A DNA stretch of 64,000 nt from Corynebacterium lizhenjunii (GTDB taxonomy: Bacteria > Actinomycetota > Actinomycetes > Mycobacteriales > Mycobacteriaceae), in assembly GCF_011038655.2 (NCBI RefSeq), contig NZ_CP064954.1, forward strand, positions 372,001-436,000, read 5' to 3'. Below, in pieces: positions 680 through 63,800 of this stretch. Under the pieces are notes generated by a model. It saw only the letters and a program-made list of their open reading frames with translations. It did no database searches and had not been told where the DNA came from. Position 1 is the stretch's first letter, and the number at the start of each line of letters is the position of its first letter. A program made the position numbers and the translations under genes.

Positions 680-1555
680 TTAAGCCGGCAGGTGAAAGCG
701 CTGCTGGGCGTCTTGTTCGGCGAGGCCATCGGCAAGCAGGGAGGCCAACGCACGGGAGCGCTGCGCAGCATCCGGCCACACGACATCGATGGCGCTGCGG
801 GACACGGGGGTATCGGCACGCCGGAGCACGTCCATGATGAGGCCGCGCACCTGTCGGTCAGTGCCGGTGAACTTCTGCACCCGCATCTTTGCCGCAGCCA
901 GCTCGTGGCTAGCAGGCTCCGGGCAGCCGGCTAGCTGCCAGGCGCACGTGTCCAGCAAGGGACAGCGCTGGCATTGCGGCGAGCGCGCGGTGCACACTAG
1001 GGCTCCCAGTTCCATCACTGCCACGGAATATAGTGGGCCGTCTTTGGCTGGCAGCAGCTCGGCGGCACGGACAAGCTCGCGTGCTCGCGGCGGTGGCGCC
1101 AGAAAGTCGCCGTCTAGGGCGCGGGCATAGACACGGCGCACGTTGGTATCAACCACCGGCACGTTGCGCCCGTAGTGGAAGCACGCCACCGCGGCGGCGG
1201 TGTACTGGCCGATGCCGGGCAGGGCCTGGAGCTCTTCGATGGTGGAGGGGATGGGGGCATCGGCAAGCTGTTGGGCGCATTCCCATAGCCGCAGGGCGCG
1301 GCGCGGGTAGCCCAGCTTGCCCCAGGCACGCAAGACTTCCGCTTTGCTGGCGGTGGCGAAGTCCGCGGGGGTGGGCCAGCGCTGCATCCATTCCTCCCAC
1401 ACCGGGGCCACCCGCGCGACGGGGGTTTGCTGGCTCATGACTTCGCTAACCAAGACTCCCCACGCGGTTGTTCCGGGCCGCCGCCAAGGCAAGTCGCGGC
1501 GCGCACCGCGGAACCACTCCACAATTTTTTGTGTGTCAATTGCCTGCGTATCCAT
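680..1555 (-). CDS. mutY: A/G-specific adenine DNA glycosylase MutY
   Basis: A 291-residue base-excision repair enzyme that removes adenine mispaired with 8-oxoguanine. Visible are the glycosylase start VSEVMSQQTPV, the helix-hairpin-helix LPGIGQYTAAAV followed by the catalytic-Asp segment VVDTNVRR, and the 4Fe-4S ligands C-x6-C-x2-C-x5-C in CTARSPQCQRCPLLDTC. The MutT-like C-terminal domain is short, as in other actinobacterial forms. The ATG at 1555 gives MDTQ and the family N-terminus; longer forms would overlap the divergent carbonic anhydrase. The QLADAP segment is encoded by a perfect copy of the dispersed 15-base word (1253-1267). Confidence 0.93.
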   Translation of the reverse strand: MDTQAIDTQKIVEWFRGARRDLPWRRPGTTAWGVLVSEVMSQQTPVARVAPVWEEWMQRWPTPADFATASKAEVLRAWGKLGYPRRALRLWECAQQLADAPIPSTIEELQALPGIGQYTAAAVACFHYGRNVPVVDTNVRRVYARALDGDFLAPPPRARELVRAAELLPAKDGPLYSVAVMELGALVCTARSPQCQRCPLLDTCAWQLAGCPEPASHELAAAKMRVQKFTGTDRQVRGLIMDVLRRADTPVSRSAIDVVWPDAAQRSRALASLLADGLAEQDAQQRFHLPA

Positions 1556-1580
1556 CGCAGGTAGCTTAGACTTTGAATTT

Positions 1581-2207: not shown

Positions 2208-2241
2208 GGGCCCCGCGCGCCTAGCGCTTTAGGATGGGTTC

Positions 2242-10931: not shown

Positions 10932-11765
10932 TTAAGGCGTGCGCACACGCCGGAAGAACTCTGCCACTAGGTCCGCGGCGATAAAAGAGTTGGTATTGCG
11001 CCCCAGGCGGGCGTCGAGCACGTTGCCCGAAGGGATAAGGTGCCCCATGCCTGCAACGCGCAGCAGCTCCACGGGGGCAGGGCCCTCCCACCGAAAGCGG
11101 GTGGTATCCCCAAAAATCTGCTCGCTCACCGGCTCCGGATGAGCCCCATTGAGCTCAGCCAACCGCGCAGCAGTCTCCATGGCGCCGAGTACCGGGCCCC
11201 GGGTGCGCTGCGCATCCAGGCCCGCCGTGCCACCTTCATAAGGGGCTAGAGGATCAGCGGTGCCGTGCATGAGCAGCACCGGGGTGGGGAGAAAAGCACT
11301 ATCGGGGTTGGTGGGCGCGTGATTGGAACCGGCACCGAGGGTGGAGGCGAAGACAACGGCGGCATCGGCAAGCCTAGGGGCATCAAACAGCAAGCGTAGC
11401 ACCATCTGCCCACCATTAGAAAAGCCTGCCAGGAACACCCGCCGGGGTGCTAGCTCGCGGATCAAGGCGCGGGTAAAGCCGACATCATCAATGCCCAGCT
11501 CGCGCGCGGCAACCGGCAAGGTGGCGCGGGCATCATTAAAGTGCTGCTCCACGCCGTAGGGGTACGCCACCTGCATCCCATCCAGTGCGTCAAAGGTCCC
11601 TGCAGTAAAGCGGCGGATGACGTTGCCGGACTGCAGGGAGCCGTGGAAGAAAATCAACAAATCATGCGGGCCTGGTGCACCCTGCGGGGTGACCAAGACG
11701 TATTTGCGCTGGCGGCCTTGGTGCTCCAGGCGACGGTGTTCGACGGTGGTTTCGCGGGCATTCAC
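10932..11765 (-). CDS. Alpha/beta-hydrolase, PHB-depolymerase/LpqC-like esterase
   Basis: A 277-residue esterase-like protein. It shows LLIFFHGSLQSG (oxyanion region), the nucleophile elbow GFSNGG (Ser), an acid in MHGTADPLAPYEG and a His in GMGHLIPSG, forming a complete triad. There is no signal peptide, so it is probably cytosolic, unlike secreted LpqC or feruloyl esterases. Substrate unknown. RLADAAV is encoded over a copy of the dispersed word (11358-11372). Convergent with the methyltransferase, 8 bases apart. Confidence 0.75.
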   Translation of the reverse strand: MNARETTVEHRRLEHQGRQRKYVLVTPQGAPGPHDLLIFFHGSLQSGNVIRRFTAGTFDALDGMQVAYPYGVEQHFNDARATLPVAARELGIDDVGFTRALIRELAPRRVFLAGFSNGGQMVLRLLFDAPRLADAAVVFASTLGAGSNHAPTNPDSAFLPTPVLLMHGTADPLAPYEGGTAGLDAQRTRGPVLGAMETAARLAELNGAHPEPVSEQIFGDTTRFRWEGPAPVELLRVAGMGHLIPSGNVLDARLGRNTNSFIAADLVAEFFRRVRTP

Positions 11766-13374: not shown

Positions 13375-14402
13375 TACGCGCCGGGCTTTCTTGCTGAGTC
13401 TGCCGATGCCGCCTGCCCCGCCGGGTCTGCCCCGGCCTGGCTCGCCGGGTCTGCCCCGGCCTGGCTCGCCGCCTTCTCCAGGGCACCGAGCACCTGCTCG
13501 TAGTAGTCAAAGAAGTTCTCCCCGCCCACGGGGGTCTCGCCAATTTCTACGATGGGCATTCCGGCGGCCTCGGCGGCGTCATGGATGCGCTGGGTCAGGT
13601 CGGTTTGGGTCTGCGGATTGTAGATGAGCAGGTCAAAGTCCCTGGCCTGCACGGCTTGGAGGAAGCGCGCCAGGTCTGCAGCTGCCGGTTCGCCTTCGCT
13701 CAAGGTCACGGCCCGGTACTTCTCCGGGGTCTTGTCTGTCCAGGGGGCGGGGGCTAGTAGGTAATCTGCAATCGGCTCGGTTTGGGCATAGGTGCGCGCG
13801 GGCAGGGCGGCCAGGCGGTCGCGCACGCTGGTGGTTTTGGCCACGACCGTTTCGGCAGATGCACCTGCATCCGGGTCTAGGGCATTGATGGCGCTGGCAA
13901 CGTCTTTGGCCACAAGCGTGATGGCGTCGATGTCGTACCAGACATGCTCATTGCCGTCGATGACTTCCACCCGCGATTGCGCGGCGTTGCCCGCGTCTGG
14001 GTTGCGCAGCCCGCCGTGGTCTACCAGCGGCAGTGCGGAGATGATGGCGTCCTGGTTGCTCATGGCCTGGTAGAGCCAAGCGTCATAGCCGCCGCCACCG
14101 ACGACGGCAATGTCAGCGTCGTTCGCGCGCGCCACATCTGCGGCGGTGGGCTCGAAGTGGTGGGGGTCTACGTCCGGGTTGGTGATAACGGAGGTGACAG
14201 TAACCGGCGTGTCAGAGGCCACGGTGTCCGCGACTTCCTGCGCGATGTGGGCCCAAATCGGCGTGGAGGCCACGATGTTGATGCCCTCCTCGCCAGCGCC
14301 GCCCCCGGCCCCGCTGCTTGCTGCGGGCTGCCCGCTGGAGGAACACGAGCTAAGCGTTAATGCCAACAAGGTTGCGGCGGCAAGCCGGGCCAAATTTGTC
14401 AT
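13374..14402 (-). CDS. znuA: Zinc-type ABC transporter substrate-binding lipoprotein
   Basis: A 342-residue cluster A-I metal-binding lipoprotein. Signal peptide with lipobox TLSS-C near residue 20; metal-site segments DPHHFEPTAAD (His) and NEHVWYD (His), with later acidic ligands. I chose ATG 14402 because it puts the signal peptide at the N-terminus; a longer form would need a TTG at 14438. The C-terminal tail repeats ASQAGADP and ends over a copy of the dispersed word (13399-13413), read here as AASAD. First gene of the znuACB operon, divergent from the LacI-type regulator. Confidence 0.87.
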   Translation of the reverse strand: MTNLARLAAATLLALTLSSCSSSGQPAASSGAGGGAGEEGINIVASTPIWAHIAQEVADTVASDTPVTVTSVITNPDVDPHHFEPTAADVARANDADIAVVGGGGYDAWLYQAMSNQDAIISALPLVDHGGLRNPDAGNAAQSRVEVIDGNEHVWYDIDAITLVAKDVASAINALDPDAGASAETVVAKTTSVRDRLAALPARTYAQTEPIADYLLAPAPWTDKTPEKYRAVTLSEGEPAAADLARFLQAVQARDFDLLIYNPQTQTDLTQRIHDAAEAAGMPIVEIGETPVGGENFFDYYEQVLGALEKAASQAGADPASQAGADPAGQAASADSARKPGA

Positions 14403-14473: not shown

Positions 14474-15544
14474 ATGTCTTCTCGCAGCCCGCACCGCAAA
14501 ACCCTGGCCTGGTTGGCTGCAGAATTAGGGGTATCCGCCACCACAGTCTCTAACGCCTATAACCGCCCGGACCAGCTGGCACCCGCCACCCGGGAGCGCA
14601 TTTTGCGCGCCGCCCAGGAGCTCGGTTACGCGGGCCCGGACCCCACCGCGCGAAACCTGCGCACCCGCCATGCCGGAACGGTGGGGGTGTTGCTGACGGA
14701 GCACCTGTCTTATGCCTTCGAGGATTTGGCCTCCGTGGACTTCTTGGCCGGAATGGCGGAGTCTACAGAGTCGTCGTTGACCTTGATTCCTGCAGGTCCT
14801 GATGCCGCCGCTCGCCCCGGCAAGATTGCCGACATGGTGGGTGGCGCTGCCGTGGATGGCTTTGTGGTCTACTCCGTGGCTGCGGGGGATCCTTACTTGG
14901 AGGCCGCGCGCGCCCGCAACCTTCCGCTGGTGGTGTGCGACCAGCCCAAGGACACCGGGGCGCCCTTTGTGGGGATTGATGATCACCTCGCCATCCAGCC
15001 CGCCGCCCAGGCCTTGGTGGCCGCCGGGCACCGTCGCATTGGCATCCTGGCTATCCGCTTGTTTCGCCAGCGCCGCGATGGCCCGGTGTCTGTACCCCAG
15101 CTTGCCGATGCCCCCCTCCACGTCCAGCGTGCCCGCGTCCAAGGTGCGTTGGAGGTTTTTGGTGCGGCGGGTATTGGGGAGGTCCCGATTATCACCCGGC
15201 ACCTTAATACTCCGGAGACTGCCCGCGCGGCTGCGGCGCAGCTTCTCGATGCCCACCCGGACATCACCGCAGTGTTATGCACCACGGACTCTATGGCCTT
15301 GGGCGTGCTGGCCCTGGCGCAGGAGCGCGGCTGGGACGTCCCGGGGGATCTGTCCGTGACCGGTTTCGATGGGATTGCCCCCGCCCTGGCGCGGGGGTTG
15401 AGCACCGTGGTGCAGCCCAACAAGGACAAGGGCGTAGCTGCTGGCCGCATGCTGAGCCAATTCATTGCCACTGGTTCACCCGTGCCCAGCCAGCAACTCG
15501 AGACCACGTTTATGTTGGGAACCACGCTGGGCCCACCCCGCTGA
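14474..15544 (+). CDS. ipsA: LacI-family transcriptional regulator, IpsA-like
   Basis: A 356-residue repressor or activator. The helix-turn-helix is typical LacI type (TLAWLAAELGVSATTVSNAYNRPDQL), followed by a periplasmic-binding-protein-like effector domain. The neighbours (zinc transporter one side, otsB/otsA other side) are those of C. glutamicum IpsA, the inositol-responsive regulator of inositol-1-phosphate synthase and mycothiol genes; the symbol rests on that synteny. ATG 14474 has a TACAGT -10-like box 7 bases upstream, suggesting a leaderless mRNA. A variable loop PQLADAPLH carries a perfect copy of the dispersed 15-base word (15101-15115). Confidence 0.75.
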   Translation: MSSRSPHRKTLAWLAAELGVSATTVSNAYNRPDQLAPATRERILRAAQELGYAGPDPTARNLRTRHAGTVGVLLTEHLSYAFEDLASVDFLAGMAESTESSLTLIPAGPDAAARPGKIADMVGGAAVDGFVVYSVAAGDPYLEAARARNLPLVVCDQPKDTGAPFVGIDDHLAIQPAAQALVAAGHRRIGILAIRLFRQRRDGPVSVPQLADAPLHVQRARVQGALEVFGAAGIGEVPIITRHLNTPETARAAAAQLLDAHPDITAVLCTTDSMALGVLALAQERGWDVPGDLSVTGFDGIAPALARGLSTVVQPNKDKGVAAGRMLSQFIATGSPVPSQQLETTFMLGTTLGPPR

Positions 15545-15658: not shown

Positions 15659-16403
15659 TGAAGTCGGCGCGCGCGGTGGCTAGGTCGTGGAGGAATTGGG
15701 CCACTGCGTCGACATCGGCCAGACGGTGTGCGGCAGTAGTGGGGCCGTCGCCGACTTTGATGGCGGCATCGGCAGTAGGGTCAAGGACGGCAAAGCCTTG
15801 CTCATCGGTGACATCATCGCCAAGGAAGACAACGGTGGTTGCGCCCACGCGCTCACGGAATTGCTCAATCCAGGTGCCCTTGGTGGCGTGGACGGCGGAG
15901 AACTCCACCACCATCTTGCCCAGGGTCTTGGGGTAGGACCCGGCCTCGATCTGCATGGCGGCAGCCAACGCGGCCTGCGCTGCCTCGGGGTCTACCCGGT
16001 GCAATGCTAGGACGTGGAGCACCCGCTGGAAGGGCTTGACCTCTATTTCTGTGCCGGGAAAACGCGCGACTATTGCCTCCAGCTCCCGCTCCACGTGGTC
16101 CAGGTGCGCCTGGGCGCCGGCGTCCAAGGGCAGCACGGCTTGGGAGGACTCCGCCCCGTGGGAGCCACCAAAGACCACCGGGTGTGCCAGCGGGCAGACC
16201 TGCTCCAGGCCGTCGAGGTGACGCCCGGAAAGCACCGCCGCGGTGGTATGTGGCAGGCCCGCCAGCAAGGTTAGCGCGGCCATGGACTGGGGGTGGGCCT
16301 TGACGGAGTAGGGGTCCGTGGCGAACTCGGCCAAGGTGCCATCGAAGTCACTGACTACTGCCAGGTGAGGGGCGCGCGCCAGGGTTTGTACTAAAGAATC
16401 CAT
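15642..16403 (-). CDS. otsB: Trehalose-6-phosphate phosphatase
   Basis: A 253-residue HAD-superfamily phosphatase converting trehalose-6-phosphate to trehalose, the sugar carrier of corynomycolates and an osmoprotectant. HAD motif I is VVSDFDGTLAEF (nucleophile Asp); motif II SGRHLDGL; motif IV VFLGDDVTDEQGF. ATG 16403 (MDSLVQTLARAP) is the first ATG; extending further needs a TTG. It ends a minus-strand run with otsA and a lipoprotein, so both trehalose steps are probably co-expressed. Confidence 0.93.
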   Translation of the reverse strand: MDSLVQTLARAPHLAVVSDFDGTLAEFATDPYSVKAHPQSMAALTLLAGLPHTTAAVLSGRHLDGLEQVCPLAHPVVFGGSHGAESSQAVLPLDAGAQAHLDHVERELEAIVARFPGTEIEVKPFQRVLHVLALHRVDPEAAQAALAAAMQIEAGSYPKTLGKMVVEFSAVHATKGTWIEQFRERVGATTVVFLGDDVTDEQGFAVLDPTADAAIKVGDGPTTAAHRLADVDAVAQFLHDLATARADFISPRA

Positions 16404-16985: not shown

Positions 16986-18418
16986 TGCGCCTGCCTGTCT
17001 GCCCCGGCGGTGCTCAAACACTCCAGGAAGGTTGATGCCCACAGATCCACGTCATGGGCCATCACATGCTCGTGCATGGCGCGCATGCGTTGCGCCAAGA
17101 CGTCTGGTTGTTGCTTGAGCCCCACCACGGCGTCGCGTAGCGCCTTCTTCATCGACTCGATGTCGAAGGGGTTGCATTGATAGGCCTGGGTCAGCTCGGC
17201 GGCGGCACCGGCGAACTCGGAGAGTACTAGCGCCCCGGAGTTATCCCCGTGGCAGGCAACATACTCCTTGGCCACCAAGTTCATGCCGTCTTTAAAGGGG
17301 GTGACCAGCATGACGTCTGCCATTCGGTAGTAGCGGCGCAGGATGGTCTTATTGACGCTGGTGTGCTGGTAATGCACCACTGGTTGGCCTATACGCCCAA
17401 AGCGCCCATTAATCCTTCCTACCGCCTCTTCCACCGTCGAGCGCGTGGTGCGGTAGTGCTCCAAACGCTCCCGCGACGGCGTGGCCAGCTGCACCAGGCA
17501 CACCTGATCCGGGTCCAACGCGCCGGTTTCTAGCAGTTCCTCAAAGGCGATCAGCCGCTGGTGGATGCCCTTGGTGTAATCCAGCCGGTCGACGCCCAGA
17601 ATCACGGTGCGCTCTTTGCCCAGTTCTGCGTGTAGGCGCTCTGCCCCGCCCAGGTCTGCGGGTGTGAGGTCCGCCATCGCGGCGGCCGCAATGGAGATGG
17701 GGAATGCGCCTATGCCGCTGCGCCGGCCATCGCCCGCACTGACCCACGTGCCGATGCCCCGTGTGCGCACACTACCAGTAACCTCCAGGCCCTGCCTGCG
17801 CGCAAGTTCAGCGAAGTTGCGGGCGTTGGACTCCAGCTGGAAACCGATGATGTCCGCGCCCAACAAGCCCCGCACCAACTCGGTGCGCCACGGCAGTTGA
17901 GCAAACAAGTCAGGGGAGGGGAAGGGGATGTGTAAAAAGAACCCGATGGTCAAGTCGGGGCGCAGCTGGCGCAAGATACCGGGCAGTAGCTGTAGCTGGT
18001 AGTCCTGCACCCACACGGTGGCCCCAGGGGCGGCAACAGCGGCGACCTCATTGGCAAAGCGCAGGTTAACTTCCCGGTATGCCTGCCACCAGTCGCGGCT
18101 ATAGATCGGAGTGACAATCAGATCGTGGTACAGCGGCCACAACGTTGCATTAGAAAAGCCTTCATAAAAGCCCTCAAAATCCGCCTGAGTGAGCTTGACG
18201 GGGTGCAACAACACGCCGCCTTCGGTACGGAAGGGCTCCGGGGCGTCCCCCACTACCCCAGGCCAGCCCACCCAACAGCCCTGGTGCTTTTCTAGCACCG
18301 GAGTCAGGGCACTGACCAATCCACCCGGGGAAGGCGCCCAGGTGCGGGTGCCATCCGGGGCAGTGTGCGTATCCACCGGCAGCCGGTTGGCCACCACCAC
18401 AAAGCTGTTGTCGCTCAT
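16982..18418 (-). CDS. otsA: Trehalose-6-phosphate synthase
   Basis: A 478-residue GT20 glycosyltransferase joining UDP-glucose and glucose-6-phosphate. Family blocks: VVANRLPV at the N-terminus, [43 protein letters not shown], and [18 protein letters not shown] near the C-terminus. Length is normal for OtsA. Downstream, the lipoprotein gene overlaps its stop; upstream, the Lys-rich protein gene ends 10 bases before it, so all probably share a transcript. Confidence 0.95.
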
Positions 18419-18843: not shown

Positions 18844-20634
18844 TTATCCCTGCCTAGGGCTAACTCCGGGATCATCTGGGGAGGACGAGCCCTCCGCCAA
18901 CGGCAGCGAGAGTGCCTCCCATGTATCGGTGACGGGATCCAACTGGTCCAGCACCTCCAAGACCTCTGTGGAATCCCATGCTTCCAGCTGCTCTTTGTAG
19001 GCCTCGTCCTGCTTGGAGCGCACGTCCGCACCTGCAAAGGACCCCGTGGGGGTCGCCGCCGCAGGGGTGTTCCGGTCCGGCTGTGGGCCTTGCACCGGTG
19101 GCGGCACCGGCCGGGTGAGCTTGGGGGCAAACGGGGATAGCGGAACGCGGGGAATCCGTGGCGCCCGTGTGGCCAAGTTGCGGGCCTGTTGGAAGGAAAA
19201 CCGGCCCAAGCGCTTAAAGGCAGAGTACGGCCGGAAGTGCTGCGGGCGGCGCAGTCGGCGTGCACCGCGCTCGCCTAAGACCACCCCGGCCGCCACCGCG
19301 CCGGCAATAGCCAATGCCGTAGCCAGGTTGCTAAACCCGGTGATGATTTGCTCGTTAATAGTGGCATACATCCCGCGGTACAACGTCACGCCCGGCAGCA
19401 TGGGCGTATAGCCAATAATCATGGTGATCAGTGGCGGAATGTAGTACCTGCGGGCCAGCAAACCGCCGGCCAAGCCCACTGCAATAGCCGCAATGCCGCA
19501 GGCAATCACCGTACCCACCCCAAAGGGAATGACCACAAAGTAATAAAACACCATGCCAGCAGCCGCTGTCAGCCCGGAGATGATTACTTCCTTCCACGTG
19601 GCATAGACCGCATAAGCAAACGCAGCCGAACCAATGGATCCCGTCAAAATCAGCAGCGGAACCTGGTGGTAGACGGGAGGGGCGGTGGTCTCCAGGGGAG
19701 GCAGGGGGACTCCGAGGGCATCGGCAAGCTGAATGCCAATGCCCACCCCGCCCACAATGGCACCTGTAGCCATCATGGCCTCGAAGAAGCGCGCGGAAGA
19801 AGTCACCGGGGCGCGCGTGATGCCGTCCACCAGACACTGCACCAGTGTCAGGCCCGCCACCAGCACAATAATGCCTGAACCAATAATCTGCGAAGGGATT
19901 AGAGTTACGCCCATGTGCGCGGCCACGTTATATAACGCCGCGGCCGGCAACACCGCAATCACCCCGCCCACAATGTTCTGGTAGAACGTGGGCACCCGCA
20001 GCCGCGCCAGGTAGGCATTCACACCCATCACTGTCAGTGCGATGAGGAAGGTGACCACCGCTGTCAGCGCCCCGCCGCCCAGCATCACCGAAAATCCCGC
20101 GCCCATAACGCCCCAACCCACCAAGGTCGGGCCCACCGAACGCGGCGGCGGCATGCGGTCAATCTCATCCAAAATGCGCTCCGCCAACGCCGGGGGAGTA
20201 GAACCGGAATGGATGGAGCGAATCAGCTTATCTACGGCCGAGAGCTTAGAGAAGTTCACGTCTATACCCGGCGCCACCCTAAAGACGTGCAGTGGCCTGC
20301 GGTCTGCGCCCGTACCCACGTTGGTGTGGATGGTGATGGTGTTCATCATGATATCCACGTGGCAGTAATGCAGACCGTACGATGCCGCCGCCAAATACAC
20401 CTGTGCCCGCGCGTCCGCATTGGACGTGCCCGCGCAAATCAGCAGCTCCCCAATGCGCGCCGCAATCTCCATCACGCCGGTGACCTGCGCTGGGTCCGTC
20501 AAGTCCACCGGCGCCAGCGGGGAGGGTGGCGGGGCGGCCCGGGCCGTATCAATAGTGGCAATCCGGTGGCGCGAACTCGCAAATACCGCGCTCAACTTAT
20601 CTTTCCAAGAACCCACTGGTGGTACTTTCTCCAC
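18844..20634 (-). CDS. thrE: Threonine/serine exporter ThrE
   Basis: A 596-residue inner-membrane exporter of threonine and serine. An N-terminal cytoplasmic DUF1212 region (VMEIAARIGELLICAGTSNADAR, then HVDIMMNTITIHTN) is followed by about ten helices spanning DUF1212 and DUF3815. The ~120-residue Pro/Arg-rich C-terminal extension after the last helix is longer than in C. glutamicum ThrE. Position upstream of the otsA region matches C. glutamicum. QLADALGV covers a copy of the dispersed word (19714-19728). Confidence 0.9.
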   Translation of the reverse strand: MEKVPPVGSWKDKLSAVFASSRHRIATIDTARAAPPPSPLAPVDLTDPAQVTGVMEIAARIGELLICAGTSNADARAQVYLAAASYGLHYCHVDIMMNTITIHTNVGTGADRRPLHVFRVAPGIDVNFSKLSAVDKLIRSIHSGSTPPALAERILDEIDRMPPPRSVGPTLVGWGVMGAGFSVMLGGGALTAVVTFLIALTVMGVNAYLARLRVPTFYQNIVGGVIAVLPAAALYNVAAHMGVTLIPSQIIGSGIIVLVAGLTLVQCLVDGITRAPVTSSARFFEAMMATGAIVGGVGIGIQLADALGVPLPPLETTAPPVYHQVPLLILTGSIGSAAFAYAVYATWKEVIISGLTAAAGMVFYYFVVIPFGVGTVIACGIAAIAVGLAGGLLARRYYIPPLITMIIGYTPMLPGVTLYRGMYATINEQIITGFSNLATALAIAGAVAAGVVLGERGARRLRRPQHFRPYSAFKRLGRFSFQQARNLATRAPRIPRVPLSPFAPKLTRPVPPPVQGPQPDRNTPAAATPTGSFAGADVRSKQDEAYKEQLEAWDSTEVLEVLDQLDPVTDTWEALSLPLAEGSSSPDDPGVSPRQG

Positions 20635-20751: not shown

Positions 20752-20766
20752 CTTGCCGATGCCCCC
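20752..20766 (+). repeat. Intergenic perfect copy of the dispersed 15-base word
   Basis: CTTGCCGATGCCCCC between thrE and tRNA-Thr, outside any gene. Five exact copies of this 15-mer occur in the window (others at 1253-1267 and 37786-37800 on the minus strand, 15101-15115 and 35786-35800 on the plus). The rest of 20635-20906 shows no gene. Confidence 0.85.
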
Positions 20767-20906: not shown

Positions 20907-20982
20907 GCTGGAGTGGCGCAATTGGTAGCGCAACGCACTTGTAATGCGTAGGTTGCGAGTTCAAGTCTCGTCTCCAGCCCCA
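20907..20982 (+). tRNA. tRNA-Thr (anticodon TGT)
   Basis: A complete cloverleaf: acceptor arms GCTGGAG/CTCCAGC (20907-20913 with 20972-20978), D arm with AATTGGTA loop, anticodon stem ACGCA/TGCGT with loop CTTGTAA (anticodon TGT at 20940-20942), T loop GTTCAAGTC, and an encoded CCA at 20980-20982. Reads ACA codons. The accessory ncRNA/rloB block begins directly after it, as is common for insertions next to tRNA genes, though I found no repeat of the tRNA 3' end or integrase. Confidence 0.95.
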
Positions 20983-23615: not shown

Positions 23616-25262
<1,647 letters not shown>

Positions 25263-25277
25263 TCTGCCGATGCCCCC
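25263..25277 (+). repeat. Copy of the dispersed word just after groEL2 stop
   Basis: TCTGCCGATGCCCCC begins one base after the groEL2 stop, outside coding sequence. Confidence 0.85.
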
Positions 25278-36909: not shown

Positions 36910-37914
36910 ATGAGCACGGGAAACGCCATGTGTAGCGGGAATTCTATGCACAGCGGGAATGCACTGCGCGGAGCTACAGCTGCGCGCAGTGGTCAACCCT
37001 TCTGGCCGCGGCGCAGCCCGCACTTCGCCCGCCTGCGCGCCCTGGTACGCCCGGTGCTCGCACACGCCCTGGACCAGTATCCGCGTGTGGGCATTGGGCT
37101 CTCCGGGGGCCCAGACTCCCTGGCCCTGACCGCCGCCGTGGCCGCCGAGACCTCCCGCGCCATAGCGCTGTGCGTGGACCATCAACTCCAGCCCGGATCG
37201 CGTGCGGTGGCCGAAGCCGCCGCGAACCAAGCCCAGCAGTGGGGGATAGACGCCCGCGTCATTACCATCGACGCCGGCAATAGCGAAGCCACCGCGCGCA
37301 CCGCCCGCTACCGCGCCCTGGGCGCAGCAGGCATCCCCGTACTCGTGGCACACACCGCCGAGGACCAAGCCGAAACCCTGTTGCTGTCCGCCCTGCGCGG
37401 GCACGCCACCGGCATGGGCTCGCGCGCCCACATCGAAGGCTGCACCGTGCTGCGCCCGCTGCTTTCCGCCCGTCGCGCCGATACCCTCGGCGCCTGCGCC
37501 GAATTGGGCCTACGACCCTGGCACGACCCCCACAACCAGGCCGCCAACTTCCGCCGCGTGCGCATCCGCCGCGACGTCATCCCGCTGCTCGGCGAAATCC
37601 TGGGAGGCGACGCAGTAGCCCCCCTGGCCCAGGCCGCCACCGATATGGCCGCTGACCACGACACTTTGGCCACTGCCGCCACCAACGACTGCGCCCAACT
37701 CGCCGCCATGGCCGAACCCCACCGGCGGCGCGCCATCATCGCCTGGCTGGAAACCCAGGGGGTAGAGCCATCGCGGGAGGCGATAGGGGGCATCGGCAAG
37801 CTGTGCACCCACTGGCACGGGCAAGGAGGCGTGGCAGTAGCCGGGCAGGCAGGGGGCGCAAGGTTGGAAGTAGCCCGCATTGGTGGCAAACTGGCACTGC
37901 GAACACAACACTAA
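36910..37914 (+). CDS. tilS: tRNA(Ile)-lysidine synthase
   Basis: A 334-residue enzyme converting the wobble C of the tRNA-Ile CAT anticodon to lysidine. The PP-loop [11 protein letters not shown] lies near residue 60; [17 protein letters not shown] and the [12 protein letters not shown] block follow. The first 18 residues repeat Ser-Gly-Asn and contain several Met, so translation may begin at a later ATG. The C-terminal domain is short and carries IGGIGKL, encoded by an antisense-oriented perfect copy of the dispersed word (37786-37800). Confidence 0.92.
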
Positions 37915-38508: not shown

Positions 38509-40680
38509 ATGAAGAACTCCAACATTGTGCGCTACGGCGCCATCGGCGCACTGGCGCTGGTGATGCTCTACGTCTTTACCTTCTTTAACAACGACGCCCG
38601 CAGCTACACCCCCGTAGAGACCTCCGTGGCGCTGAGCCAACTCAGCGAAGGCAACGTCGAAGAAGCCCAGATTGATGACCGCGAACAACGCGTCCGTCTA
38701 AAGCTGCGCGAGCCAATCACGGTGGAAGAGCGCGACGGCGTAGAAGAAATCATGGCCAAGTACCCGGCCCGGGCCACCGCGGAGGTCTTTACCGCGGTCA
38801 AGGACTCCGGGGCGGAGAAATACCAGACCAAGGTCACCCAGGAGTCCTTCCTGGGCTCCATGCTCAGCTTCATCCTGCCGATGTTGATCGTCTTCGGCTT
38901 GCTGTTCTTTATGATGTCGCGCATGCAGCAAGGGGGCATGTTTGGCATCGGGGCATCGAAGGCCAAAGAACTGACCAAGGACATGCCCACTAACACCTTT
39001 GCCGACGTCGCAGGCGCCGACGAGGCCGTAGAAGAACTCATGGAAATCAAGGAGTTCCTCGAAGACCCCAGCCGCTACCACGAGCTAGGCGCCAAGATCC
39101 CGCGCGGCGTGCTGCTCTACGGCCCGCCCGGTACAGGTAAAACGCTGCTGGCACGCGCCGTGGCGGGGGAGGCCGGAGTACCGTTCTTCTCCATCTCCGG
39201 TTCCGACTTTGTGGAGATGTTCGTGGGCGTGGGTGCCTCCCGCGTGCGCGACCTGTTCAAACAAGCCAAGGCGCAATCGCCGTGCATTATCTTTGTCGAT
39301 GAGATCGATGCCGTGGGCCGCCAGCGCGGCTCCGGCACCGGCGGCGGGCACGACGAGCGCGAACAAACCCTCAACCAGCTGCTGGTGGAAATGGACGGCT
39401 TTGGCGACCGCGAAGGCGTTATTCTCATTGCCGCCACCAACCGGCCGGACATCTTGGACCCCGCACTGCTGCGCCCCGGGCGTTTCGACCGCCAAATCCC
39501 CGTGACCAACCCGGACCTGGCCGGGCGCGAGAAGATCCTCGAAGTTCACTCCAAGAACAAGCCGCTGGCCAAGCACGTGGATGTGCGCGAACTGGCCAAG
39601 CGCACCGCCGGCATGTCCGGCGCGGACCTGGCCAACGTGCTCAACGAGGCCGCGCTGCTCACCGCCCGCGTGGGTGGCAACGTCATTACTGCCGATGCCC
39701 TCGAAGAAGCCACCGACCGCGTAGTCGGCGGCCCGCGCCGGCAGTCCAAGATCATCTCCGAGCATGAAAAGAAAGTCACCGCCTACCACGAAGGCGGCCA
39801 CACCCTAGCCGCGTGGGCCCTAAAAGACATTGAGCGGGTCTACAAGGTCACCATCCTTGCGCGTGGGCGCACCGGCGGACACGCCATGACCTCCCAAGAA
39901 GACGACAAAGGCATGTACACGCGGGAAGAACTCTTCGCCCGCATAGTCTTTGCCATGGGTGGGCGCGCCGCAGAGGAACTAGTCTTCGGGGCGCCGACCA
40001 CGGGGGCATCGTCAGACATTGAGCAAGCCACCAAAATTGCGCGCGCCATGCTCACCGAATACGGCTTTAGCCCCGACCTGGGCACCGTCAAGTACGGCCA
40101 GGAGCAAGGCGACCCCTTCGGCTACGGTGGCATGGGTGGCAGCATCGACTACTCCGATGCCGTGGCGGCGCGCATTGATGAGCAGCTGCGCTACCTGCTC
40201 GACCGCGCGCACGAAGAGGCCTACTCCATCCTGGCCGAATACCGGGACTACCTCGATGCGCTGGTTGAGCTGCTGTTGGAGAAAGAGACCCTGCGCCGGC
40301 CCGACCTGGAGGGCGTGTTCGACGGGATTGTCCCGCGCGCTGCTACCGCAGTCTTTGATAACGCGCGCTTCCCGCGCCAAGCCGGCCGCGAGCCCGTGCT
40401 GACCCCCGTGGAACAAGCCCAAGCCCGTGGCGAAGAACTGCCCAAGCGTGTGACCCTTTTGGACGCCACCCGCGCCGCACGTGAACGCCGCCTGGCTGGC
40501 CAACAGGTCGAAGGCGAGTATGGCTTTAACTTTGGCCAGCACGCCGGCGACAACACCAGCGACGACACCGGCGACGCTGACGCCCGCCCGGCCGCCCCCG
40601 CTGGCGGCGGCGCTTCTGACGTTGACTCCGCCCGCCCCACCGGCGGCGCCCCCGCCCGCCCCGAAGACAGGGAGATCTGA
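38509..40680 (+). CDS. ftsH: ATP-dependent zinc metalloprotease FtsH
   Basis: A 723-residue membrane-anchored AAA protease for quality control. Two N-terminal helices (about residues 8-24 and 114-135) flank a small extracytoplasmic domain; Walker A GPPGTGKT at 205-212; Walker [15 protein letters not shown] region [12 protein letters not shown]; zinc site HEGGH at 427-431. The C-terminal ~50 residues are disordered Ala/Pro/Asp-rich. Adjacent genes overlap or nearly touch (hpt 2 bases before; folE start shares the stop). Confidence 0.97.
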
Positions 40681-41246
40681 TGACTTTTGATCAAGCCCGC
40701 GCGGAAGCGGCCGTGCGCGAATTGCTATTGGCGGTGGGGGAGGACCCGGACCGCGAAGGACTGGCAGACACCCCGGCCCGCGTGGCGCGCGCCTACAAGG
40801 AAGTCTTCGCCGGCCTGCACACGGACCCAACGGAAGTCCTAGCCAAGACCTTCGCGGAGGACCACCAGGAGCTGGTGCTGGTGCGCGACATTCCCATTTA
40901 CTCCACCTGCGAACACCACCTGGTGCCGTTCTACGGCATGGCGCATATCGGCTACATTCCCGGCAAGGACGGCCACGTAACGGGGCTGTCGAAGCTGGCC
41001 CGCCTGGCAGACATGTACGCCAAGCGGCCGCAGGTCCAGGAGCGGCTGACGTCCCAGATTGCCGATGCCCTCGTAGAAAAACTCCACGCCCAGTCCGTCA
41101 TTGTGGTCATTGAGTGCGAGCACTTGTGTATGGCTATGCGGGGTATCCGCAAGCCGGGCGCGACCACCACCACGTCAGCCGTACGGGGTGGGTTCAAGAC
41201 CAACGCGGCATCGCGCGCGGAGGTCATCAGCCTCATCCGCGGCTAG
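40680..41246 (+). CDS. folE: GTP cyclohydrolase I
   Basis: A 188-residue enzyme opening folate biosynthesis (GTP to dihydroneopterin triphosphate). Zinc ligands are in [12 protein letters not shown] (Cys, His) and ECEHLCM (Cys); [18 protein letters not shown] is the conserved core. ATG overlaps the ftsH TGA by one base. First of four consecutive folate genes. QIADALVEK covers a dispersed-word copy (41058-41072). Confidence 0.97.
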
Positions 41247-41298: not shown

Positions 41299-42303
41299 TT
41301 GTCTCACACCCGCGTCATGGGAATCCTCAACGTCACTGCTGATTCTTTCTCCGATGGCGGCCGCTGGCTGGACCCCGATGCCGCCCTGGAACACGCCCGC
41401 CGGCTGATGGCCGCGGGGGCGGACATCATTGATGTGGGCGGGGAGTCCACCCGCCCGGGCGCAGCCCGCGTGGACGCCGAGGTGGAAATCCAGCGCGTGG
41501 TGCCCATCATCGCGGCGCTGCATGCTGAGGGCATCCCGACCTCTGTGGACACCATGCGCGCGGCCACCGCGGCTGCGGCAGTCGAAGCCGGGGTCGGTCT
41601 GATCAACGATGTTTCCGGCGGCCTGGCAGACCCAGACATGTTCGCCGTGATGGCGCAGTCCCAGCTGCCTGTGTGCCTGATGCACTGGCGCACCAGCGTC
41701 TTCGAGTCCGCCGCAGGTGCTGCCGATCACGGCGGCGATGTGGTGGCGGATGTACGCGCTACGCTGGCCGATTTGGCCGCCCGCGCCCAGGCCGCCGGGG
41801 TGGACCGTAGCAACATCATCGTTGACCCCGGCCTGGGCTTTGCCAAGACCCCGGCGGAGAATTGGGCCCTGCTGCGCGCCCTGCCCAGCCTCAGCGACCT
41901 GCCGATTCTCGTTGGCGCCTCCCGCAAGCGCTTCGTCACCGCCCTGCGCGCCCCCGTGTCTGCCGATGCCGCCATTCCCGCCATCTCCGCCGATGCCCCG
42001 GCCCACACCCCCGTGGCTTCGGCCGACACCCCGGCGCCTGCCGCCGTGGCCTCGCCTAGTGGGACTACCCACCCGGCGGACCCGGCGACCGCGGCCATTA
42101 GTGCGCTATCGGCGCATTATGGCGCGTGGGCGGTGCGCGTGCACGACGTTGCCAGCTCCCGCGCGGCGGTAGATGTCGCCGCCGCGTGGGCCGGTGCCGT
42201 GCCCGGAACAACCTCGGCACTGGGGGCTACGGCGGCACCCGCAAACACGGCATCGGCAAGCACGGCTGCACAGAGAACTACAAAGGAGGAACCATGCGCA
42301 TAG
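41299..42303 (+). CDS. folP: Dihydropteroate synthase with a low-complexity insert
   Basis: A 334-residue enzyme (sulfonamide target) joining the pterin and p-aminobenzoate. Motifs: VMGILNVTADSFSDGG, DIIDVGGESTRPGA, INDVSGG, DPGLGFAKT, and VGASRKRF near the C-terminus. I chose TTG 41299: SD AAGGAG at 41287-41292 is correctly spaced and homology starts there. Between SRKRF and the closing AAISALSAHYGAWAVRVHDV is an Ala/Pro/Ser/Asp-rich insert of about 45 residues carrying two dispersed-word copies, and an Ala/Thr/Ser-rich tail carries a third in the other orientation. The 3' end overlaps folB by 10 bases. Confidence 0.93.
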   Translation: MSHTRVMGILNVTADSFSDGGRWLDPDAALEHARRLMAAGADIIDVGGESTRPGAARVDAEVEIQRVVPIIAALHAEGIPTSVDTMRAATAAAAVEAGVGLINDVSGGLADPDMFAVMAQSQLPVCLMHWRTSVFESAAGAADHGGDVVADVRATLADLAARAQAAGVDRSNIIVDPGLGFAKTPAENWALLRALPSLSDLPILVGASRKRFVTALRAPVSADAAIPAISADAPAHTPVASADTPAPAAVASPSGTTHPADPATAAISALSAHYGAWAVRVHDVASSRAAVDVAAAWAGAVPGTTSALGATAAPANTASASTAAQRTTKEEPCA

Positions 42304-47434: not shown

Positions 47435-47449
47435 GGGGGCATCGGCAGA
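47435..47449 (-). repeat. Intergenic copy of the dispersed word
   Basis: The complement of TCTGCCGATGCCCCC ends right at the stop of the DUF3068 gene, a position like that after groEL2. Confidence 0.85.
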
Positions 47450-52011: not shown

Positions 52012-55000
52012 GTGTTTGACGTAAATCTCTTTGACGAGCTCCGGATTGGCCTGGCCACCGCGGACGACATTCGCCGTTGGTCCAAGGGCGAGGTGAAGAA
52101 GCCGGAGACCATCAATTACCGTACTCTCAAGCCGGAGAAGGACGGTCTGTTCTGCGAGCGCATCTTCGGCCCTACCCGCGACTGGGAGTGCCAGTGCGGT
52201 AAGTACAAGCGTGTGCGCTTCAAGGGCATCATCTGTGAACGCTGCGGTGTGGAGGTGACCAAGTCCAAGGTTCGCCGCGAGCGCATGGGCCACATTGAGC
52301 TGGCTGCGCCGGTGACGCACATTTGGTACTTCAAGGGTGTTCCTTCCCGACTGGGCTACCTGCTGGACTTGGCGCCGAAGGACCTGGAGCGCATCATTTA
52401 CTTCGCGGCCAACATCATCACCTCGGTGGATGAGGAAGCCCGCCATAATGATCAGTCCACGCTGGAAGCAGAGATGCTGCTGGAGAAGAAGGACGTCGAA
52501 GATGACGCCAACTCCGAGATCGCAGAGCGCGCTGCCAAGCTGGAAGAGGACCTGGCGGAGTTGGAGGCTGCAGGCGCGGACGCCGCTGCCCGCCGCAAGG
52601 TGCAAAATGCTGCCGATAAGGACATGCAGCGCCTACGCGAGGAAGCCGAGCGCGAGATCGCCCGTCTGGATGAAATCTGGAACACCTTCCTCAAGCTGTC
52701 CCCGAAGCAGATGATCATTGATGACACCATCTATGAAGAGCTGGTGGACCGCTACGAGGATTACTTCACGGGCGGTATGGGCGCGGAGGCTATCCAGACC
52801 CTGATCCGCAACTTCGACCTGGAGGCCGAGGCGGAGAACCTGCGCGAGATCATCAACAACGGCAAGGGCCAGAAGAAGGTCCGCGCACTCAAGCGCTTGA
52901 AGGTGGTGGCCGCCTTCCTGCGTTCCGGTAATGATCCGGCAGGCATGGTGCTCGACGCCATTCCGGTGATCCCGCCGGAGCTGCGCCCGATGGTGCAGCT
53001 CGACGGTGGTCGCTTTGCCACCTCCGACCTCAATGACCTTTACCGTCGCGTGATTAACCGCAACAATCGCCTCAAGCGCATGATCGACCTGGGCGCCCCG
53101 GAGATCATCGTTAATAATGAGAAGCGCATGTTGCAGGAGTCCGTGGACGCGCTGTTCGACAACGGCCGCCGTGGCCGTCCGGTCACGGGTCCGGGCACCC
53201 GCCCGCTGAAGTCGCTGTCTGACTTGCTCAAGGGTAAGCAGGGCCGTTTCCGCCAGAACCTGCTGGGTAAGCGTGTAGACTACTCGGGCCGTTCGGTGAT
53301 TATTGTGGGCCCGCAGCTCAAGCTGCATGAGTGTGGCCTGCCCAAGCTGATGGCCCTTGAGCTGTTTAAGCCTTTTGTGATGAAGCGCCTGGTGGAAAAC
53401 GACTACGCGCAAAACATCAAGTCCGCTAAGCGCATGGTGGAGCGCCAGAGCCCTGAGGTGTGGGACGTGCTCGAAGAGGCTATTTCTGAGCACCCGGTGC
53501 TGCTTAACCGCGCACCGACCCTGCACCGCCTGGGTATCCAGGCCTTCGAGCCGAAGCTGGTGGAGGGCAAGGCTATTCAGCTGCACCCGTTGGCGTGTGA
53601 GGCGTTCAACGCAGACTTCGACGGTGACCAGATGGCTGTGCACCTGCCGCTTTCGGCAGAGGCACAGGCTGAGGCCCGCGTGCTGATGCTGGCTTCCAAC
53701 AACATTTTGTCCCCGGCGTCCGGTAAGCCGCTGGCCATGCCGCGTCTGGACATGGTTACCGGCCTGTACTACCTGACCATGGATAAGGCTGAGGGTGAAA
53801 TTGGCGGTGCGGGCCGTTACACTGCCGCGTCTGCCGATGCCCCCGCTACCGGCATCTACTCCTCTTACGGTGAGGCCATCATGGCCTACGACCGTGGGGT
53901 ACTGGGCCTGCAGGCGCCGATCAAGGTGCGGATTTCCCACCTGCGCCCGCCGGCGGACATTGAGGCCGAGCAGTTCCCGGATGGTTGGGAGAAGGGCCAG
54001 CCGTGGCTGGCGGACACCACCTTGGGCCGCATCATGTTCAACGAGCTACTGCCGTGGAACTACCCGTACCTTGAGGGCGTGATGGTCCGCAAGGGCGGTG
54101 CTGGTAACAAGGTGCTGCTGGGTGATGTGATTAATGATCTGGCCGCGAAGTATCCGATGATCACCGTGGCCCAGGTGCTGGACAAGATGAAGGATGCCGG
54201 TTTCTACTGGGCAACCCGTTCCGGCGTGACCATCACCATGCATGACGTGCTGGTGCTTCCGAATAAGACGGAGATTCTGGAGTCTTATGAGAAGGAAGCT
54301 ACCCGCATCGAGCGCAAGTACTGGGAGCAGGGCGCGCTGACTGAGCGTGAGCGCTACGACCGCCTGGTGGAGCTGTGGAAGAACGCTACTGACGAGGTCG
54401 GTAATGCGGTGGAGCAGCTGTACCCGGATGACAACCCGATTCCGATGATCGTGAAGTCGGGTGCAGCCGGTAACATGCGCCAGATCTGGACCCTGGCCGG
54501 CATGAAGGGCATGGTGGTGAACTCGCACGGTGAGTACATCACCCGTCCGATTAAGACCTCCTTCCGTGAGGGCCTGTCCGTGTTGGAGTACTTCAACAAC
54601 TCGCACGGTTCCCGTAAGGGCCTGGCCGATACCGCGCTGCGTACCGCAGACTCGGGCTACCTGACTCGCCGTCTGGTGGACGTGGCCCAGGACGTTATTG
54701 TCCGCGAAGAGGACTGTGGCACCCGCCAGGGTGTGCGCGTGCCCATTGGCCAGGATGGCGCTATCCACGAGCTGTGGGAGACCTCCGCTTCTGGCCGCGT
54801 GGTGGCTACCGATGTTAAGGACGCCGAGGGCACCGTGATTGCGGCAGCCGGCGCGGACCTGGACGAGGAGCTGACGGCCAAGCTGTTGGCGGCGGGCATC
54901 GGCGAGCTCAAGGTTCGCTCCGTGCTGACCTGCCAGACTCCGGCGGGCGTGTGCGCGAAGTGCTACGGCAAGTCCATGGCCTCCGGCCAGCTGGTGGATA

Positions 55001-58551: not shown

Positions 58552-58653
58552 ATCACTGGCCGGAGTTGTCTTTCGACCGACATGTGGGCCGCCGCCCTGG
58601 TGTGGCTCGTATCCTTTGTAAACTTTTGCAGCAACCCACTGAGGTCCCACCCC

Positions 58654-60877: not shown

Positions 60878-63800
60878 ATGCTCAACACTTTCTCTAAGGC
60901 CATGCGCCGCATGCGCGTAGGCGTGGCATTGCCCGCCGTGGCCGCGATTGCCCTGGTGGCCACGCCGGTAGTGCAGGCGCAGGACGCCGAGGACCTGGCC
61001 ACCGCTGTTGCCGAGGTCGAGTCTGCTTCCGCCGATGACCCCGCTGCCGAGTCCGCCGATGCCCCTGCTGATACCGGGTCTGCCGATGCCGTCGTGGCGC
61101 CCGCTCCCGCTTCCAGGGAAGCCGAGGCTGGGGAGCCTGCTGCGGGCCAGGTCGCAGAGGGTGAGACTGACGAGGTTGCTTCGCTCATCGAGCCGGACAG
61201 CGTCAAGTACGAGGAGATCCGTTACAACGAGGAAACCGGCGCGTACGAGAACCGACTCACCTTCAAAGTGGCTGAGTTGGCGGACCCACAGCGGCTGAAC
61301 ACCATCACCCTGCTGCGCGAGAACTCTGACGTCTACATCGATGAGAAGATGAACGTGGTCGTGCAAGGCACCAAGTTCCGCATGCTGGGCGGCTACGCTG
61401 TGGACGACGACGGCCGCCATCTGCTCTCCGTTGATGGCCAGTTCTTCACCGCCAAAGGTGGGGAGACCATTGAAGTTGTCTATACCACTTTTGAGTCCGA
61501 TAAGGACGCCGCCTGGAAGCTCTATGACGGCGATGGCTCTGCCTTCGACATCCTGGAGTCCAACAACTACAACTACGGACCGTTCCGCATCCGGCAGGTC
61601 ACTAGAGGAACCGCCCCTGATATTTCAGAGGCACAGCCGGCGGGCGGCACCATTGTTGGGCCTTACTTAGATTCGTCCAATCGCCAGAATCCTGCTTGGC
61701 GCGGCGAGCTTAACACGCGACGCTACACCGGCCCGCTGGAGGACCCCACTTTCGAACGCGAGGGAGCCAACGAGCGGCAGAGCTATTTGGGCGTCGTTCC
61801 GTATCCCGTGCAAAACCGCAACTGGTACCTTGACCAGTATGCGGACACCGGGCACCGCACGGGAAACAGGCCAGTGTTGGGGCCGCCAAAGGAGGGGTTC
61901 CCGGCTTCGGCAGACCAGCGCGGTTTCATCTACATGATGGGTGAACAGGGCAAATGGTATTCGCGTTCCAATGTGCAGTACGCGTGGAAAGAAGAGGGCC
62001 CTAATCGCAACACGCCGCATAATTGGCGTGCGCAGGAATTCTTGGTAGGCGGCGGTGACGCTGATGCTGCGGTGTACAGTTTCTTCTACAGGGGCCTTGC
62101 TACTGGAGGGCATCGAATCCCGATTACCGCCGATTTCAACCGGACCGGTGATCCTTCGATCCGACTATTCATCGAGGGCATTATCAACACCGAAGACGGT
62201 CAGTGGACCGCAGAGCCGGGTGACAGCTCAGAGACGATTTATTTCTCTAGCCCGAACTCGCCCTATGGCGTTATGGTCCGCGATGAAGGCAGTCAGAAGG
62301 GCATTAACTTTAACTTTTACGATAACGCCCGTATGCAGCAGATTCGCGCCGGAAGGCCGCTCACCCACGCTGTGGTGAAGCAGCAAATGCCGCAGGCACA
62401 GGTTGGTGTGAATATCGGCGGTTGGCGCCGGGCAGTAGTGAGTTTTGCATCTCTGGGCGAACCTCGCACTGGAGAGCAGGTTGATGGGTCTTTGGAAATG
62501 TACCATTCCGGCCACTACAACAGCTACCGCAGCGCACGTGTGGGTGTGAACTGGTACCAGCCGGGGCCAACTGGACCTGCGGACCTGCAAGTAGCCAAAT
62601 CTGTGGTCAAGGCGCCCGCTGAGGGTGATAAGTACGTGGACTACACGCTGGAGGTCAAGAACCTCCCGCGTGATGGCCGCCAGCCGTCGACGCGCCTGTT
62701 TACTCTGAAGGACACCCCGCAGTTCCCGGCTTCGGCTGGGGTTACGGAGGTCAAGCTGGTAGAAAACGGCCGCGAGGTGGACCTACCGGTGGCTGATGAT
62801 GGTTTCACAGTCAACCCGGATGAGCCAGGCCACTTGATTGCCTACAAGGAGACCATTGCTCCGAACGAGACCAAGACCTTTACCGTCCGCGTGAAGTTCC
62901 AGCCGCAACAAGGCGGGGTAAATCCTGCCGATGCTAAGTGCGAAGCAGGCACACCGGGCAAGGGCGCCTTCAACACCGCAAAGGTCTACCAAGAATCTGA
63001 CCCGCGTCCGAAGGCTGAAGCTAACGCTTGTGCGGACTTCCCGTCCACACCCAAGCTGGAGTTTGCTAAGAATAACGCTCAAGTGACTGATGTTCAGGGT
63101 GATGAGGACAAGGCTTGGGTTTCCTACGATCTGGTAGTCACCAACCCTGCCGGTAGCCCGGCCACCACCTACACCAACCTGTTGGACACCCCGCAGTTCC
63201 CAGCGGGTGCACGGATCGAGCGCTTCGAGCTGCAGTCCGCGCGTGCAAGCAACAATCAGACGATTGCTGGAGTGCTCAACCCGCCTACGCAGGCAGGTAG
63301 CGGCTGGCGTATTACTCGCCAGGATGCGCAGGTGAATATCGCTGGCGGTGTGACGCATACCTATAAGGTGCGCATGCTGATTAATAAGCTTGACGCTACC
63401 GCGGCTGCGGGCGCGACCTGTGAGGCAGGGACCGCTGGCCGAGGCCTGTTGAACAAAGCCCAGCTATCTATGCCGGGTAAGCCGGAGCCCCTGACGGACG
63501 ACGAGTGTATCGACGCCCCGCTCAAGCCCGGCAAGCCGACTGTGGAAAAGGCTGTCGAAGGCACCGTGAACCAACTGCCTGACAACAAGGCAGAGGTTAA
63601 CTACGTGGTGCGCGTGCGCAATGATCAGCCGCAGGCCATCGACCGGACCTTGCGCGTGGTTGATACTCCGCGCTTTAGCCAGGCAGTGAGCCAGCCTTAC
63701 ACCGTCCAGGTGCAAAAGCCGGGTCAGACTGGGTTCACCACTGCGCAGGCAACTAACGGCAACTACGTTCTGGACACCGCGCGCACCGTGCGTGCCGGCC

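Follow-up and report, generated by a model that had tools for sequence, protein, structure and literature searches.

According to the available part of a 2025 paper (PMC12616744), only the Neisseriaceae and Pasteurellaceae are known for DNA uptake sequences. In the Neisseriaceae, DNA uptake sequences (DUS) occur in thousands of copies, some of them intragenic, and form dialects that differ by one or a few bases around a fixed core and agree with the core-genome tree, while some members of the family are word-less, as described in the accessible sections of PMC3630211. The uptake signal sequences (USS) of the Pasteurellaceae, which comprise the Hin and Apl types, are commoner in one orientation within genes, as stated in the excerpted text of PMC2346458. 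Here, we analyze a window of 64,000 nucleotides from Corynebacterium lizhenjunii (bases 372001–436000 of its genome, a single contig of 2,607,882 bases), where a short DNA word, TGCCGATGCC, is dispersed far above chance, together with the counterparts of this word across the genus. Of the readings considered, a DUS-like word agrees best with the sequence tests made: it is probably a DNA uptake sequence, i.e., a self-recognition tag bound by the competence apparatus and accumulated by molecular drive, and it is described here as DUS-like rather than as a proven DUS/USS member.

Analogous to the DUS of Neisseriaceae, as far as the accessible sections of PMC3630211 describe them, the Corynebacterium word combines a high copy number, dialects built around an invariant core, copies within genes, and word-less relatives. 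However, DUS are built on a CTG core, whereas the Corynebacterium word is gapped, GCTT-NN-CGAYG, and resides in an actinobacterial host; its inverted pairs are rare, and while DUS have the receptor ComP, no ComP-type receptor was found here. The preference for one orientation within genes is shared with the USS of Pasteurellaceae (excerpted text of PMC2346458), but the sequences are unrelated. Five features of DUS and USS were recovered by the tests made, namely hundreds to thousands of copies far above chance, the lack of an overall strand polarity, placement both inside and between genes, origin by point mutation instead of insertion, and dialects with a fixed core. The original prediction, made from the window alone, had likened a 15-base word to uptake sequences; this likeness stands as the best fit, but the unit is the gapped word rather than the 15-mer, and it is genus-wide, with two dialects and repeated losses.

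A gapped word in two dialects

In the window, TGCCGATGCC occurs 23 times (12 plus, 11 minus), against 0.43 ± 0.59 copies (maximum 3) in dinucleotide shuffles; the excess is 22-fold relative to an order-4 Markov model and 8-fold relative to an order-5 model, both of which were trained on the window and partly absorb the word itself. The 15-mer CTTGCCGATGCCCCC has five exact copies, and 46 sites match it with at most three mismatches, where 5.2 ± 2.5 are expected. The predicted copy number, exact 15-mers, strong over-representation, and balanced orientation were thus all recovered, as were 21 of the 23 coordinates; the other two, 30471 and 30531, were ten too high and are corrected to 30461 and 30521. 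Genome-wide, the word has 990 copies (504 and 486 by strand), whereas the reversed word, used as a control, has 10.

Chi, KOPS (FtsK-orienting polar sequences), and AIMS (architecture-imparting sequences) are likewise short, overrepresented, and genome-wide, but they are strand-polarised. In contrast, the 185 copies in 504 kb of the own genome divide into 97 leading and 88 lagging, with no replichore bias, when the terminus is set where the GC skew changes sign, between samples taken at 1.30 Mb and 1.43 Mb, and base 1 is taken to lie near the origin. A Chi/KOPS-type site, for which replication-strand polarity is required, is therefore rejected, in agreement with the original prediction. HIP1 (highly iterated palindrome) of cyanobacteria, the reader of which is unknown, is also highly iterated; however, HIP1 is palindromic, while the Corynebacterium word is not and has dialects. 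The gaps between copies are nearly random (coefficient of variation 0.96). A single sampled prophage of 20 kb (L011:1-20000, i.e., 1430001–1450000 of the own genome), in which portal, terminase, head, tail, SSB, and RecT-like genes are present and all seven tested proteins match PHROG families, including portal, terminase, and major head, contains 0 copies of TGCCGATGCC where the genome mean predicts 7.6, and one copy of GCTTNNCGATG.

The anatomy of the word was derived from the window plus 400 kb in 20 spread stretches of the own genome (464 kb, later extended to 504 kb in total). The 169 copies of the 464 kb give the consensus A-G-[CT]-[TC]-TGCCGATGCC-[CG]-C-C, with AGCTTGCCGATGCC as the main form and AGTCTGCCGATGCC as the second. 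Around 77 exact copies of GCTTGCCGATGCC, one-base variants are scarce (0–3 per position) at CGAT and the second T, the commoner ones being T3→C (12), C6→T (10), C12→G (9), G1→C (7), G5→T (6), and G11→T (6). In relatives rich in TGCCGATGCC, the common part is GCTT-NN-CGATG, and the NN bases vary. The unit is the gapped word GCTT-NN-CGAYG, of which TGCCGATGCC and the 15-mer are the form of the own species.

The two dialects were counted in 201 Corynebacterium genomes, with cuts of at least 250 copies for the C dialect (GCTTNNCGACG) and at least 600 for the T dialect (GCTTNNCGATG); genomes are denoted G### (G000 being C. lizhenjunii) and loci L###. The T dialect is bimodal: 11 genomes, including the own, hold 625–1,337 copies, and the remainder 12–213. 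The C dialect is carried by 138 genomes with 280–1,964 copies, none of them T-rich, so that 149 of the 201 genomes bear the word and 52 fall below both cuts, including G072 and G200, in which 213 and 211 T copies are left. The ranges of 150–250 C copies and 250–600 T copies are empty; T-rich G142 has 352 C copies in addition. That low-T relatives had simply lost the word proved wrong for most of those examined, since GCTTnnCGACG is the top gapped word in seven of nine (G004, G198, G036, G181, G011, G105, and G026), while no word like it was found by gapped-word counting in G170 and G200. In G088 (loci L241–L242), CGACG is often followed by an A, and the NN bases are T-rich in G026; there may, thus, be more than two dialects.

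In named species, which were checked by one rpoB locus each (17–24 kb, 15 species), the C dialect is found in C. propinquum (18), C. halotolerans (16), C. tapiri (14), C. lowii (13), C. xerosis (12), and C. meitnerae (12), and more weakly in C. minutissimum (7). The loci of C. jeikeium (0), C. spheniscorum (1), C. sp. zg-331 (1), C. mastitidis (2), C. alimapuense (2), and C. glyciniphilum (3) are near background, and those of C. pacaense (5) and C. sp. TAE3-ERU16 (3) were excluded from the state counts as ambiguous. Beyond the genus, 201 genomes were drawn from across the family (16 Corynebacterium and 185 of 30 other genera), and all 185 had counts near the controls, with a count-to-control ratio of at most about 2.7 as read by eye from the table; the comparison with related species called for by the original prediction thus places the word within Corynebacterium. 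In 40 kb of each of 10 word-less genomes, no other repeated word of comparable strength was found; the most pronounced, TCGCCGAGG in G039, resembles an effect of codon bias in a GC-rich genome.

In an rpoB tree with 46 rows, of which 44 carry a state (that of each named species resting on a single locus), presence or absence changed at least six times and the T/C dialect at least four times, and a single clade for the 11 T genomes is rejected on rpoB alone (approximately unbiased test, p 1e-104). The word is lost or absent in several lineages. Since the C form is widespread in the genus, C is suggested to be the older dialect, the direction of change being beyond the reach of counts alone. This history departs from that of the Neisseriaceae, where, in the accessible sections of PMC3630211, dialects follow the core-genome tree; it also departs from that of the Pasteurellaceae, where the two USS types split two subclades (excerpted text of PMC2346458), while the Corynebacterium types interleave and over a quarter of the genomes counted lie below both cuts.

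Placement in genes and fate at orthologous sites

The sense, antisense, and intergenic classes used here rest on genes called by our own script, which is crude. The 169 own-genome copies comprise 97 in sense orientation within called genes, 39 antisense ones (19, 18, and 2 in the three phases), and 33 intergenic ones, the noncoding share of the sampled DNA being 18%. One explanation of the word is a codon or peptide effect, i.e., a favoured Leu-x-Asp-Ala string with fixed codons. It draws on the fact that one sense frame is by far the commonest (117 of 236 words in the loci of 14 C-dialect genomes, 219 of 308 in nine of ten T relatives, and 74 of 130 in an own-genome set) and that so few copies in the T relatives are intergenic. 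However, Ala-Asp-Ala is spelled GCCGATGCC in frame 118 times, while the synonymous spellings GCCGACGCC, GCGGACGCC, and GCGGATGCC are found only 10, 7, and 6 times; it is, thus, the DNA word and not the peptide that is in excess. Moreover, the sense, antisense, and intergenic copies each outnumber the reversed word in the same loci, which marks the signal as one at the DNA level: 127, 84, and 25 against 9, 6, and 0 in the C set; 232, 68, and 8 against 0, 5, and 0 in the T relatives; and 75, 32, and 23 against 0, 1, and 0 in the own genome. Contradicted by the rare synonymous spellings and by the antisense and intergenic copies, as well as by the switching of the silent third base of GAY between sister species described below, the codon or peptide effect is extremely unlikely, and the confinement to Ala-Asp-Ala codons that would have undone the original prediction is not observed.

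The position of the word within genes depends on its orientation. From the 5′ to the 3′ quintile, sense copies of the C set number 15, 14, 35, 32, and 31, favouring the middle and 3′ parts, and antisense copies 26, 17, 15, 13, and 13, favouring the 5′ part; these counts include repeated orthologs. With this restriction, the lean is reminiscent of the USS pattern of Pasteurellaceae in the excerpted text of PMC2346458.

Orthologous sites were aligned in the rpoB, Tad, and ComEC regions and the first samples; these loci overlap, and the counts below are not mutually independent. Within a dialect, close relatives conserve the word: in the T genomes G006, G152, and G104 (94–95% nucleotide identity), the nine fixed bases are intact at 95–100% of the sites, compared with 63–64% in background windows; also intact are 21 of 27 and 21 of 21 words in the C genomes G004 and G198. 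Between dialects, the word is exchanged in place. Of 19 T words in G006, 15 are C words, one is a T word, and three are other sequences at the same place in G004 (81% identity), and the reciprocal swap from G004 to G006 is found at 15 of 22 sites; further T to C swaps amount to 18/23 (G152 to G004), 14/20 (G104 to G198), and 8/14 (G142 to G036), along with small samples toward G036 from G000 (3/5), G137 (3/6), and G143 (4/7). The exchange is specific to the word: among core-conserved sites of G006 and G004, CGATG within the word has become CGACG at 15 of 16 sites (one T), whereas CGATG outside the word has done so at 20 of 121 (97 T; Fisher P 1.8e-9). In word-less or word-poor sisters, the sites are nearly gone, as seen from the own genome to G170 (0 T and 1 C of 5), from G137 to G170 (0/7), and from G143 to G072 (1/9) and G200 (0/6).

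No gap occurs at the word sites in 48 of 51 T-to-C alignments from four pairs (19/20, 14/14, 10/10, and 5/7) and in 55 of 60 C-to-T alignments from three pairs (22/24, 14/14, and 19/22), indicating that copies arise by substitution. Together with the swap at the same place, this implies that the positions are old, that the copies were made by substitution, and that the spelling depends on the species. Among the options of the original prediction was a mobile micro-repeat, which would spread copies through the genome; hundreds of near-identical own-genome copies with conserved flanks would suit it, as would some tandem copies 15–18 bp apart and the 14 gaps below 100 bp, compared with 7.2 expected. 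It is nevertheless contradicted, because insertions against empty orthologous sites were not found, the alignments being gap-free at most sites, and a single base is swapped at the same places; we regard it as scarcely credible.

A further explanation, by which the word is a modification or restriction site that is methylated, kept for protection or marking, and changed from C to T by deamination, finds some footing in the dialects themselves, which differ by C/T at a CpG (CGACG/CGATG), and in a gene pair near comEC. At L193:5594-7637 (own genome ~1.8716–1.8736 Mb), a Dam-family D12 adenine methyltransferase and a DUF6997/DUF7226 protein, called a type II restriction enzyme by PADLOC, lie beside rpsT and comEC; the methyltransferase is present in 17 of 20 comEC loci (absent from G083, G105, and G026) and the partner in 16 of 20. 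The two genes may form a competence-linked pair that serves restriction or the protection of transforming DNA. Yet the methyltransferase is common to T, C, and word-less genomes, deamination would scatter changes rather than convert 15 of 16 core-conserved sites, and restriction targets are normally avoided in genomes, while the word is enriched. The methylation explanation is accordingly considered very unlikely.

Candidate uptake genes and the putative reader

As a DNA uptake sequence, the word would operate as follows. Competent cells would bind GCTT-NN-CGAYG on incoming DNA, and alleles carrying it would be taken in and recombined at a higher rate than untagged alleles, a molecular drive that would yield the accumulation observed in the genome counts. 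The reader would be a pilus-associated protein that binds the word, and uptake may proceed via the Tad/Flp pilus with ComEA and ComEC. A shift in the preference of the reader from CGACG to CGATG would cause site-by-site conversion of the genome; position conservation and conversion are observed in the alignments above. Loss of the word, as observed in G170, G072, and G200, would be the decay that follows when competence or discrimination is lost.

In the own genome, the Tad/Flp locus lies at G000:C1 ~222.1–227.2 kb and comEA-comEC at ~1.8756–1.8774 Mb. TadA, Flp, and ComEC were identified by Pfam matches and one TadF-like protein by its Tad domain; the remaining Tad and Com genes are presumed from gene order. 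A Flp pilin with DUF4244 is encoded at L173:12158-12457, and among 14 control genomes only C. glutamicum matches DUF4244. Across the 201 genomes, ComEC is matched in 200 (missing in G200, which is 90% complete and whose words have decayed), TadA in 198 (missing in G024, G112, and G118), the DUF4244 pilin in 198 (missing in G070, G072, and G118), and the prepilin peptidase in 199 (missing in G057 and G137). The matches of TadA (PF00437) appear weaker by eye in many word-less genomes (E 1e-39 to 1e-47) than in most word-rich ones, which is probably a clade effect. In Micrococcus luteus, tad genes and comEC are required for transformation, as stated in the accessible part of PMC4322843.

Several observations weigh against an uptake function. 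The com and pilin genes that the original prediction proposed to look for are present, but word-less species retain them too, and machinery content therefore does not predict the word. In the Tad loci of eight word-less and four C-rich genomes, no gene was consistently absent from the word-less ones, the crude calls missing CpaE and TadA even in C-rich G163. Distances of 27 Tad/Com-region proteins, including neighbours, in 15 genomes gave none that follows dialect, the largest value belonging to a cold-shock neighbour, and no candidate reader or receptor that binds the word was found among them. G137, a word-rich sister of the own genome (99% complete, 625 T copies), lacks both a match to the prepilin peptidase and a ComEA call, and its ComEC match spans only 188 of 270 positions; either uptake was recently lost there or the uptake idea is wrong for this genome. 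TadA is unmatched in the draft genome G112 (1,752 C copies) and Flp in the draft genome G070 (1,535 C copies, 100% complete), and the ComEC match is divided in two in C-rich G001, G111, and G113, the pieces in G001 (1,618 C copies) being adjacent, at G001:C4:524862-525658. Whereas the terminators of DUS genomes often carry convergent pairs, such pairs are infrequent here: among the 185 copies, inverted pairs within 100 bp comprise four convergent and no divergent ones, two of the four lie inside called genes, and all three that were folded are strong hairpins. Distant pairs within a dialect keep fewer sites (G178 to G093 7/17, with a mean match below background; G036 to G181 4/12; own genome to G137 3/6). 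In the nine T relatives, the word hardly occurs outside genes, at 0.07/kb in 121 kb of noncoding DNA versus 0.48/kb in genes, compared with 0.28 versus 0.25/kb in the own genome and 0.37 versus 0.52/kb in the C set; this near-absence between genes, as seen with crude gene calls, counts against a purely position-neutral tag. Finally, no report on the natural transformation of a Corynebacterium was present among the literature matches listed.

The strongest of the rival explanations is a DNA-binding protein inside the cell, with a specificity that drifts between CGACG and CGATG, for which the word would be a chromosomal site, such as a Chi-type recombination hotspot or a nucleoid, segregation, or repair site. 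The genome-wide, nearly random spacing and the conserved positions agree with such a site; the reader may be intracellular, and the word-less genomes show no deficit in any Tad or Com gene tested. However, the word lacks the strand and replichore polarity of Chi and KOPS, and the repeated changes of presence and dialect on the rpoB tree are ill-suited to a housekeeping site at 1,000 places. We consider this explanation unlikely, while an uptake sequence remains the probable reading.

Copies in the window and implications

Table 1. Copies of TGCCGATGCC in the window (window coordinates).
Feature	Position	Strand	Remark
word copy	1256..1265	-	exact 15-mer CTTGCCGATGCCCCC
word copy	11361..11370	-	CTTGCCGATGCCGCC
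word copy	13401..13410	+	GTCT form
word copy	15103..15112	+	exact 15-mer
word copy	15765..15774	-	
word copy	17749..17758	+	
word copy	19717..19726	-	GCTT form
word copy	20754..20763	+	exact 15-mer; intergenic in gene call
word copy	25265..25274	+	GTCT form; intergenic in gene call, directly past called gene 23622-25262
word copy	30461..30470	-	originally predicted at 30471
word copy	30521..30530	-	originally predicted at 30531
word copy	32275..32284	-	
word copy	32431..32440	-	GCTT form
word copy	33090..33099	+	GCTT form
word copy	35788..35797	+	exact 15-mer
word copy	37789..37798	-	exact 15-mer
word copy	39690..39699	+	
word copy	41060..41069	+	
word copy	41961..41970	+	GTCT form
word copy	42249..42258	-	GCTT form
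word copy	47438..47447	-	GTCT form; intergenic in gene call
word copy	53832..53841	+	GTCT form; inside called gene 52012-55992
word copy	61081..61090	+	GTCT form

The called gene 52012-55992 is one which we take to be rpoC from its position after rpoB; the rpoB product of the window falls among those of named Corynebacterium species and is 92% identical in amino acids to that of C. minutissimum, the first among the matches listed. The relative G003 shares its rpoB with C. glyciniphilum. Rfam at gathering thresholds gave nothing in the window beyond one tRNA gene, at 20907–20979, 144 bases past an exact copy of the word.

Uptake sequences in Corynebacterium are not described in the titles and abstract starts among the open-literature matches listed (subscription papers and preprints being outside this scope), and the spelled-out words were found in no paper of the open literature searched. 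We lean slightly toward a fuller picture, in which this would be a third, independently evolved DUS system and the first one known from outside Proteobacteria, with a Tad/Flp competence pilus as its reader at the surface of the mycolic-acid envelope. Most of the genus would be, or would recently have been, sexual; its two dialects would discriminate against each other and would have switched at least four times, with hundreds to a thousand sites converted wholesale.

If true, the word would be the first uptake-word system outside the families Neisseriaceae and Pasteurellaceae and a third unrelated case, in Actinomycetota, thus representing convergent DNA self-recognition with a different pilus and envelope; it would also predict natural transformation in Corynebacterium. 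Since sister species are available with the word, without it, or with the other dialect, the question of whether such words are selected or driven would become directly testable, and the same comparisons should help to find the reader.

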